From the NCBI RefSeq assembly GCF_028289705.1, contig NZ_JANQOI010000020.1, positions 1-64,000 of the forward strand: a DNA stretch of 64,000 bases, in the 5' to 3' direction. A program made the translations under genes and the position numbers. Within the stretch, counting starts at the first letter, position 1; every line of letters starts with the position of its first letter. The DNA is from Pelagibius sp. (GTDB lineage: Bacteria; Pseudomonadota; Alphaproteobacteria; Kiloniellales; Kiloniellaceae). Shown in pieces: positions 40,727 through 45,338 of this stretch. The notes under the pieces were generated by a model. That model had not been told where the DNA came from, ran no database searches, and worked only from the letters and a program-made list of their open reading frames with translations.

Positions 40727-40972
40727 TCAGTACTGCCGGGCGCGGACGATGATGCTTTCGATGGAGTCTTCGCCGAGGGCGCGGCAGGCCTCCAGCCGGT
40801 GCAGCCCTTCCTGCAGGACGTAGCGCCCGTTGCCCTGGCGCACGGAGATGGGCAGCTTCAGGCCTTCCTCCAGGATGCTCTGAGCCAGCGCGTCCACGGT
40901 TTCCTCTTTCAGCGTCGCCTTGCGCTTCGCCGGAACGTAGATCTCGTCGATTTTCAGGCGGACCGTCTCCAT
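40727..40972 (-). CDS. mini ParB/Srx-like protein (ParB N-terminal domain only)
   Basis: 81 residues. The whole protein is one ParB-type nuclease/NTPase core: LKIDEIYVPAKR...VDALAQSILEEGLKLPISVRQGNGRYVLQEGLHRLEACRALGE, with the GxxR-like LHRLEACRAL box and the conserved GLHR arginine. The DNA-binding and dimerisation domains of chromosomal ParB are absent. Such small ParB-fold proteins act as CTPases or nucleases in other contexts. It lies near but not next to a ParA-like gene; the gap to glycerol kinase is 130 bases and an operon is not evident. Confidence 0.75.
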   Translation of the reverse strand: METVRLKIDEIYVPAKRKATLKEETVDALAQSILEEGLKLPISVRQGNGRYVLQEGLHRLEACRALGEDSIESIIVRARQY

Positions 40973-41102: not shown

Positions 41103-42599
41103 TCAACCGGTCGTCCTCACCCGTACGACGGCGTCGAGCCAGCCGGCATAGCGCTCCTCGCGGTCGGCTTCGGCCATTTGGGGCTCGAAGCGGGCATCGC
41201 GCTGCCACTGTCCGGCGACGGCGTCGAGATCGCCGAACAGGCCGCGGCTCAGGCCGGCCAGATAGGCCGCGCCGAGAGCGGTGGTCTCCGGCACCTGCGG
41301 GCGCTCCACCGCGACCCCCAGGATGTCCGCCAGCATCTGCAGCATCCAGTCGTTGGCGACCATGCCGCCGTCGACCCTGAGCGCCTCCAGGCCCGTGGCC
41401 CCGTCAGCGCGCATCGCCTCCAGAAGGTCGCGGGTCTGATAGCAGACCGCTTCCAGGGCCGCCCGCGCCAGCTCCGCCGGTCCGCTGGCGCGGGTCAGGC
41501 CGAAGACCGCACCGCGCGCCTCGGCATCCCAGTAGGGGGCACCGAGGCCGGTGAACGCGGGCACCAGATAGATGCGCTGCTTGTTGTCGGCGGCCTTGGC
41601 GAGCGCTTCGGTCTCCGCGGCGGAACCGATGATCTTCATCGCATCGCGCAGCCACTGCACGGCCGCGCCGGCAACGAAGATGCTGCCCTCTAACGCATAG
41701 GTCGTCTGGCCGCCCAGCCGGTAGGCGATGGTGGAAAGCAGCCGGTTCTGCGAGAGCACCAGATCGGCGCCGGTGTTGAACAGCGCAAAGCAGCCGGTAC
41801 CGTAGGTGGACTTCATCATGCCGGCCTCGAAGCAGGCCTGGCCCACGGTTGCCGCCTGCTGGTCGCCGGCGATCCCGCCGATGGGCAGGGCCGCGCCGAG
41901 GAGTCCGGGCTCCGTCGTGCCGAAGTCGGCATCGCTGTCGCGCACTTCCGGCAACAGGCTCTCGGGAATGCGCAGCAGCTCCAGAAGATCGCTGTCCCAG
42001 ACCTGACGCTTGATGTCGAAGATCAGGGTCCGGGCCGCATTGGTCGCATCGGTGGCGTGCACCCGCCCGCCTGTCAGACGCCAGAGCAGGAAGCAGTCCA
42101 TAGTGCCGAAGGCGAGCTCGCCGCGCTCGGCCCTTGCCCGCGCGCCGGGCACGTTGTCTAGCAGCCACGTGATCTTGGTGCCCGAGAAGTAGGGGTCCAG
42201 CAGCAGGCCCGTGCGCTCCCGCACCAGATCTTCGGCGCCGCCAGCGCGCAGCTCCTGACAGAAGTCGGAGGTCCGGCGGTCCTGCCAGACGATCGCCTTG
42301 TGGATGGCCTCGCCGGTCTCCCGGTCCCAGATGACCGTCGTCTCCCGCTGGTTGGTGATGCCGATGGTCGTCACCGCGTCCATGGACTTGCCCGCCGCCG
42401 CGACGGCGCCCTTGCAGACGGCGAGCGTGTGGCGCCAGATGTCCTCGACGTCGTGTTCGACCCAGCCGGACTGCGGGAAGTGCTGGGGCAGTTCTTCCTG
42501 GGCCTGGGCGAGCGGGCGCCCCGCGGCCGAGAAGAGGATCGCCCTCGTGCTGGTGGTTCCCTGATCGATTGCAAGGATCGTGTCGCCGTCGGCGGCCAT
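41103..42599 (-). CDS. glpK: glycerol kinase
   Basis: 498 residues, usual length, from ATG 42599 with GGAGGGG about eight bases upstream. FGGY carbohydrate kinase: the N-terminal [13 protein letters not shown] phosphate loop, [24 protein letters not shown], the [13 protein letters not shown] loop and [12 protein letters not shown]. It phosphorylates glycerol to glycerol-3-phosphate with ATP. No glycerol facilitator, GlpD or GlpR is adjacent. The 5' side is followed by a MITE-like element at 42715. Confidence 0.95.
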
Positions 42600-42714
42600 C
42601 GCGTCCCCCCTCCGCATCTTGTTCTTGTTGTGCACTCGCCCCGGGCCCATGGGCCGGGCCAGGGCGCATGGTGTCGGGGCCGGGCGCCGAGATCAACCGG
42701 AACCTCGGTTGTGG

Positions 42715-42987
42715 GCTAGCCCGCATTTCTCACCACCTCCATGGTCTGCGCGGTGCCGCGCTGTCGACAGGACAGGAAAGCCGCGCGGCGCGATGTGGGG
42801 CATCGGGTAAGCGGCTTGACGCAGCCTGTCGCCAGCACGGCACCGCCCACAGGGTCGCGTAGAGGCGTCCGTTCGCGGCGTCGCGGTCCTCAACCGTAGT
42901 CTCCGCTACGCTTTTCGGACCGCTCCTTGCGGGGCGAACGCCTCTACGCGACGCAGACCGTGGAGGTGGTGAGACATGCGGGCTAGC
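42715..42987. mobile_element. MITE-like element with 36-bp terminal inverted repeats
   Basis: A 273-base element whose ends are near-perfect inverted copies: GCTAGCCCGCATTTCTCACC... and its complement ...GGTGAGACATGCGGGCTAGC, with about three mismatches over 36 bases. Internally, GTCGCGTAGAGGCGT and ACGCCTCTACGCGAC form a second inverted repeat. It contains no plausible gene. It occupies most of the 383-base space between glpK and the HNH gene. Its right CTAG end supplies the TAG stop of the HNH gene. No transposase is nearby. Confidence 0.85.
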
Positions 42988-43300
42988 GGCCGGCCCTGCG
43001 TCCCCGCTTGCGCGGGCTGCGCGGCCAGTCCACGTATTCCGGCGGCTGGCGGCGCACCCACGCGACAAAGCGCCGCATCTCCGGGTGATCGCGAAGGGCG
43101 GCCGGATCGGCATAGCGCTCAGCCAGGGCCTTCTCGTCGAAAAGCCGATGGATCATCCGGTGGCAGATCAGATGCAGCGGCACGGCCTCGCGCCCGCCCT
43201 TGGTCCGCGGCACCCAGTGGTGACGGTCCACACTCGGCCCCTCGATCATGTCGCGGCCGCAGATCGGGCAGGGACCGAGGATTCGGGTCTCATTGCTCAT
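42983..43300 (-). CDS. HNH endonuclease family protein
   Basis: 105 residues. A zinc pair C11-x2-C14 (PCPICGRD) begins a treble-clef HNH core with D25-R-H27-H28-W, a following N/G turn (TKGGREA) and H47/H51 in LICHRMIHRLF. Such small HNH proteins are often stand-alone nicking enzymes or genes of phage and restriction systems. The last residues and the TAG stop lie within the end of the MITE-like element, so the C-terminus may have been altered by insertion. The AT-rich promoter just upstream (ATATATAA on the minus strand near 43315) fits transcription from that side. Confidence 0.85.
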   Translation of the reverse strand: MSNETRILGPCPICGRDMIEGPSVDRHHWVPRTKGGREAVPLHLICHRMIHRLFDEKALAERYADPAALRDHPEMRRFVAWVRRQPPEYVDWPRSPRKRGRRAGR

Positions 43301-43381
43301 ACAAGAGGATTCTTATATATTGATCTGCATCAAGGAGGCGGAACCATCGGATTGCTAGCTTCGCGTCCATAGCCGCGGATT

Positions 43382-43533
43382 GGGAGGTGGTCCCCACCAT
43401 AACTCTTGGCCTCCCGAGCGGCGGAACCGGTCTTAGCCCAGTTGGACCGGTTGCGGGCATTCGGAGGCAATCCGAACAAGTGTACCCGCTATCTGCCCGG
43501 TGTCGTTCACTCCCGACACCGGGCAATTTTTTT
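43382..43533 (+). ncRNA. candidate structured small RNA ending in an intrinsic terminator
   Basis: Four stems in series on the plus strand: GGGAGG/CCTCCC (43382-43415) enclosing GGTGG/CCACC; AACCGGTC/GACCGGTT (43425-43452); GCGGG..TTCGGA/TCCGAA..CCCGC (43453-43489); and a 12-bp perfect terminator stem with T7. No plus-strand gene lies upstream (HNH and acyl-CoA dehydrogenase are both minus), so the terminator must end a separate transcript. A CCTCCC segment could pair with Shine-Dalgarno sites. It matches no tRNA, SRP, tmRNA, RNase P or 6S pattern that I can recognise. The 5' end is not fixed; transcription could begin anywhere between 43301 and 43380. Confidence 0.55.
43494..43533 (+). terminator. 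strong rho-independent terminator
   Basis: TGCCCGGTGTCG (43494-43505) and CGACACCGGGCA (43514-43525) form a perfect 12-bp stem with an 8-base loop, followed by A and seven Ts (43527-43533). The T-tract on the plus strand fixes its direction as left to right, opposite to both flanking protein genes. Confidence 0.88.
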
Positions 43534-43556
43534 GCGCCGATCACCCCCGGCGACAC

Positions 43557-45338
<1,782 letters not shown>

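Follow-up and report, generated by a model that had tools for sequence, protein, structure and literature searches.

Few lineages, to our knowledge, have well-characterised small RNAs of the low-oxygen response. FnrS, of Escherichia coli and other enterobacteria, is under direct FNR control and is expressed without oxygen, as reviewed in PMC8139620 (citing Durand and Storz 2010). In the Alphaproteobacteria, the promoter regions of two Rhodobacter sphaeroides small RNAs, RSs0019 (Pos19) and RSs2461, are bound by FnrL, and FNR-type regulation of small RNA genes is therefore already documented in this class; the effect of FnrL on RSs0019 and RSs2461 was not established in that study (PMC4263372), and later work found Pos19 to be a coding RNA that belongs to the RpoE regulon (PMC5036791). 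RoxS/RsaE is a redox- and oxygen-responsive small RNA whose C-rich regions pair with Shine-Dalgarno sequences (PMC4409812).

We used comparative analysis to examine a locus in Pelagibius at which a first-pass annotation of the window (the whole stretch of 64,000 nucleotides analysed) had placed an orphan RNA at 43382-43533. Consistent with that annotation, folding and a terminator check recovered four plus-strand stems and a perfect 12-bp terminator stem with T7, and the flanking genes, an HNH-nuclease-like ORF (42983-43300, closest to the HlpB model at a score under that model's cut-off) and, on the terminator side, an acyl-CoA dehydrogenase gene (43557-45338), both lie on the minus strand. 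The 5' end of the RNA is likely to lie further upstream than proposed: stem 1 begins at about 43373, and transcription probably starts at about 43368, because the promoter and the outer pairs of stem 1 are conserved. The predicted transcript, from this putative start to the end of the T-run, would thus span 43368-43533 on the plus strand, about 166 nt. Stem 1 (43373-43424) has outer CCGC/GCGG and inner GGGAGG/CCUCCC pairs, includes covarying pairs and carries the loop GUCCCCACCAUAACUCUUGG (43389-43408). Alignment and folding place stem 2, ACCGGUC...GACCGGU with a conserved GCCCAG loop, at 43425-43452, and stem 3, the most variable and differing in length between two sub-groups, at 43453-43489. 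The intrinsic terminator stem (43494-43525) is formed by TGCCCGGTGTCG and CGACACCGGGCA, with 12 perfect pairs and an 8-nt loop, followed by an A and the seven-T run (43527-43533); across relatives 98.6% of its alignment cells are paired, three of its pairs have changed on both sides, and a run of T6-T7 is present in 6/6 genomes. It faces the plus strand only, as a minus-strand reading has an A-run before the stem and no T-run after it. The minimum free energy over 43368-43533 is -80.1 kcal/mol (z -5.46, with 0/200 shuffles as stable), the wider interval 43301-43540 gives z -3.85 (1/200 shuffles as stable), and z lies between -5.0 and -6.2 in each of the six genomes with the RNA.

The most informative feature of the locus is its FNR-type promoter, which the first-pass annotation missed, the box lying outside its coordinates. 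An FNR/FixK-type binding site (anaerobox), the palindrome TTGATCTGCATCAA at 43320-43333, matches TTGATNNNNRTCAA exactly, for which 0.07 matches are expected per window; the 5.4-Mb genome has 13 distinct box sites, or 17 counts with palindromes scored on both strands, versus 1 for the reversed control. The -10 element is TAGCTT (43356-43361, plus strand), identified from a six-genome column alignment that is ungapped from box to -10, and the box is centred 41.5 nt before the predicted start, the base 7 nt past the -10. The position -41.5 is that from which FNR activates class II promoters, a promoter type without a good -35. No good -35 was found upstream of the RNA in a sigma-70 scan, in agreement with a promoter of this type. 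Box, -10 and RNA start are in gap-free register in the six aligned genomes, with the box taking the forms TTGATCTGCATCAA, TTGATCTGCGTCAA, TTGACTTGGGTCAA and TTGATATGGGTCAA and the -10 reading TAGATT, TAGGAT or TAAGAT in relatives, except that G005 fits only one base upstream, as TATAGG.

These promoter features give good support to a probable FNR control of the RNA, by one of several candidate Crp/Fnr-type regulators; the genome has 20 HTH_Crp_2 matches. One FNR-type protein (L062) has cysteines spaced CSACKIRNLTIC, candidate Fe-S ligands, and a recognition helix ETVSR (E-SR), and matches the FnrL model at E 5e-52, a score below that model's strict curated cut-off. Its gene is preceded by an FNR-type box of its own, and boxes also lie just upstream of the starts of hemN (L089) and a UspA-like gene (L088). 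At the level of sequence, the locus and its host genome show features expected of the FNR-activated small RNA class: a class II box, an FNR-type regulator in the host, a terminator of the RNA's own and no coding frame.

Being palindromic, and only 20 bp from the HNH start in the window genome (G000), the box might instead serve the minus-strand HNH gene or glpK, the hairpins then being an unexpressed palindromic remnant. We find this scarcely credible. The -10 and the distance from box to RNA are fixed on the plus side (66-68 nt from box to loop motif), whereas the gene on the minus side changes; the stems covary, and the U-run is on the plus strand. Furthermore, in G004, in which the body of the RNA appears to be missing, the terminator hairpin comes immediately after a damaged box, TTGATCTGGTCAA (L041 1501-1614). 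Apparently G004 lost the RNA body by deletion, or there is a gap in the assembly of this MAG.

Conservation of the RNA was assessed in the genus Pelagibius, where it is present in 6/8 genomes with 79-82% identity to the nearest, and the consensus structure is that of an alignment of the six genomes that carry it. Comparison with relatives had been suggested as a check in the first-pass annotation, and it bears out conserved stems with compensatory changes: 12/52 consensus pairs have changed on both sides, versus 5.4 ± 1.6 in shuffles, with 0/500 reaching 12. The number of double-change cells (18 vs 6.0) and the paired percentage (90.4 vs 84.9) were likewise reached by 0/500 shuffles, and pairing falls to 30-48% when the partners are slid. 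By computation, box, -10, stems, loop and terminator make up a conserved transcription unit with covarying stems.

Another way to view the unit is as a small mRNA for a short peptide. A reading frame that starts with GTG at 43387 stays open in four genomes, and FnrL-bound Pos19 of Rhodobacter sphaeroides provides a precedent, a small RNA described as coding (PMC5036791, PMC4263372). There is no ATG frame, however, the Shine-Dalgarno-like GGGAGG abuts the GTG, and in G003 and G007 the frame is put out of register by a 4-nt indel. The variable sites divide 7/8/6 among the codon positions, and the GTG frame runs on through the terminator, making a coding function very improbable.

The neighbours of the RNA change from genome to genome. 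In four relatives (G003, G005, G006 and G007) the RNA has HNH next to its terminator and glpK on its promoter side, and the P. litoralis locus (G002) is without HNH; in the window, HNH lies on the promoter side, beside a palindromic MITE-like element, with the glycerol kinase gene glpK (41103-42650) beyond it. Judged from gene order, a move of HNH to the promoter side took place in the window genome. The RNA unit is intact across all of these changes (INDEPENDENCE from neighbours) and this, together with the G004 remnant, argues for a self-standing gene and not a leader, an attenuator or the terminator of a gene. A cis role is nonetheless conceivable, with the RNA acting as an antisense or 3'-end RNA on its convergent neighbour (acyl-CoA dehydrogenase or HNH read-through) or as a mere roadblock, as in every genome its end lies tail to tail with a neighbour, some 20-130 bp from the stop, and a minus-strand terminator was not seen for the neighbouring gene. 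We regard such a role as quite unlikely, since the neighbour varies between genomes while RNA, loop and promoter are kept, and the RNA overlaps no coding region; no gene lies opposite it in any relative.

Several other features of these loci were recorded. The order in relatives is acyl-CoA dehydrogenase or another gene, HNH, RNA, glpK (L002, L003, L005, L006). The MITE-like palindromic element (42715-42987) is bounded by 36-nt terminal inverted repeats with 94% complementarity and also has nested inverted repeats; it stops where the HNH gene has its 3' end, and none of the loci examined in relatives contains its arm sequence. Just downstream of glpK, an 81-aa minus-strand ORF (40727-40972) has a match only to the ParB N-terminal domain (Pfam PF02195), a stand-alone ParB_N protein. 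In P. litoralis (G002), near-identical repetitive open frames of >1000 codons, with a unit of ~1.6 kb and at a contig end (L105, L111, L116, L124), are a large repeat protein split by assembly.

The covariance-model search that had been recommended placed no Rfam family in the window at the gathering cut-off, and up to E 10 gave only sub-threshold, chance-like matches, none of them to fnrS or to RoxS/RsaE. The best of these near the RNA was anti-hemB of Burkholderia (RF02837; 20.5 bits against a cut-off of 49.5), which resembles stems 2-4 and the terminator, a generic hairpin and terminator likeness and not membership. ARAGORN found no tRNA or tmRNA in the window and no Rfam model for 6S, SRP or RNase P RNA matched, as the first-pass annotation had surmised on seeing no features of these RNAs. 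Its proposal of a separate RNA of unknown family likewise stands, on the conserved promoter, covarying stems and conserved terminator and on the absence of an Rfam family at cut-off. A covariance model of the RNA matched full-length on the six Pelagibius genomes at E 2e-31 to 2e-42 (the model was built from these same six), and gave only weak matches outside the genus when run on 23 genomes of the family, 61 of the order and 385 of the class. The weak matches inspected were without an FNR box, those at class level also without the loop, and most were generic GC-rich hairpins with a T-run; none was a convincing relative. The loop motif, sought across 84,980 species, turned up in only four records, of which three carry the label Pelagibius and the fourth is a Rhodospirillales MAG, and a plasmid search gave no match to the RNA. 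By these sequence comparisons, the RNA is a new family whose functional kind is known and which, within the scope of these scans, is confined to a single genus.

How the RNA might recognise its targets was approached through the loop of stem 1. The first-pass annotation had suggested that the CCUCCC segment could pair with Shine-Dalgarno sequences, but this segment forms the 3' side of stem 1, where GGGAGG is its partner, and relatives have CCUUCC or CCUCCU in its place, with compensating changes. It is less likely to be the seed because it is base-paired and variable, and we rejected it as the main one. The loop GGUCCCCACCA (then UAAC), by comparison, is invariant among the six genomes; GGUGGUCCCCACCA of the stem 1 loop region is invariant in 6/6 while the stem below compensates, from GGGAGG/CCUCCC to GGAAGG/CCUUCC. 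Folding leaves UCCCC largely unpaired in 6/6 genomes, and in G003 and G007, in which the loop is short by four bases and an alternative inner hairpin forms, a CCCC apex is still exposed. Invariance and exposure make the UCCCC loop the better seed candidate.

We searched for targets using complements of this loop. Neither exact TGGTGGGGAC (the 10-nt loop complement) in six genomes nor GTTATGGTGGGGACC (15 nt, up to 2 mismatches) in four genomes gave a site conserved at a start codon, and 15-nt near-exact complements were no commoner than in the reversed control. The one shared site inspected, in an ABC-transporter ATPase gene (L155/L156), was set aside, being within the coding sequence and in two genomes only. 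Target pairing, for which these 10-nt exact and 15-nt near-exact complements were the test, thus enters our reading as a presumed step. The absence of a conserved mRNA complement, together with the highly structured fold and the invariant loop, would also suit an FNR-regulated RNA that sponges a protein (an RNA-binding or transcription regulator) or another small RNA instead of pairing with mRNA. We hold this to be unlikely, as the RNA shows no protein-binding motif in repeated copies and a single C-rich loop suits mRNA pairing as in RoxS/RsaE (PMC4409812). Action in trans through mRNA pairing would be compatible with there being no opposite gene in relatives and with the presence of Hfq, which the host genome encodes, and it is proposed with no target found.

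The locus as a whole is therefore best read as a stand-alone, FNR/FixK-activated, low-oxygen small RNA that probably acts in trans via loop pairing, a reading to which we assign a probability of roughly 0.68. Low oxygen would activate FNR or a FixK-type relative, and this regulator, bound at -41.5, would switch on transcription of the RNA. The predicted transcript of ~166 nt would be non-coding and would end at its own terminator, its exposed, invariant loop GGUCCCCACCA(UAAC) would pair with target mRNAs at their G-rich ribosome-binding regions, and translation of the targets would be lowered under low oxygen, probably with the assistance of Hfq. The small RNA is apparently kept by most members of the genus and partly lost in one. 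Being compact, the case lends itself to direct testing: a candidate regulator can be named, a start is predicted, a single proposed seed loop is conserved, and the RNA is present in two cultured species (P. litoralis and P. marinus).

Like FnrS as described in PMC8139620, the Pelagibius RNA would be a stand-alone intergenic small RNA gene under FNR control, predicted here for Pelagibius. Unlike it, the Pelagibius RNA belongs to another lineage and has another length and other stems, with no sequence or covariance match between the two. Our reading is that it may be the functional analogue, in Pelagibius, of the E. coli RNA, with an unrelated sequence. RSs0019 and RSs2461, compared by description only, share with it an alphaproteobacterial host and, as predicted for Pelagibius, an FNR-type regulator; these FnrL-bound Rhodobacter RNAs are known, and their low-oxygen role is unsettled. 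RoxS/RsaE of Bacillus and Staphylococcus has several C-rich regions and is controlled by ResDE/SrrAB, whereas the Pelagibius RNA has one UCCCC loop, and there is no covariance match between them. We suggest tentatively, at somewhat less than even odds, that a Pelagibius-specific family may have independently evolved both the logic of FnrS, FNR control, and that of RoxS/RsaE, here as a UCCCC loop directed against Shine-Dalgarno sequences. If true, Pelagibius would be a third lineage in which a low-oxygen small RNA shuts down aerobic metabolism.
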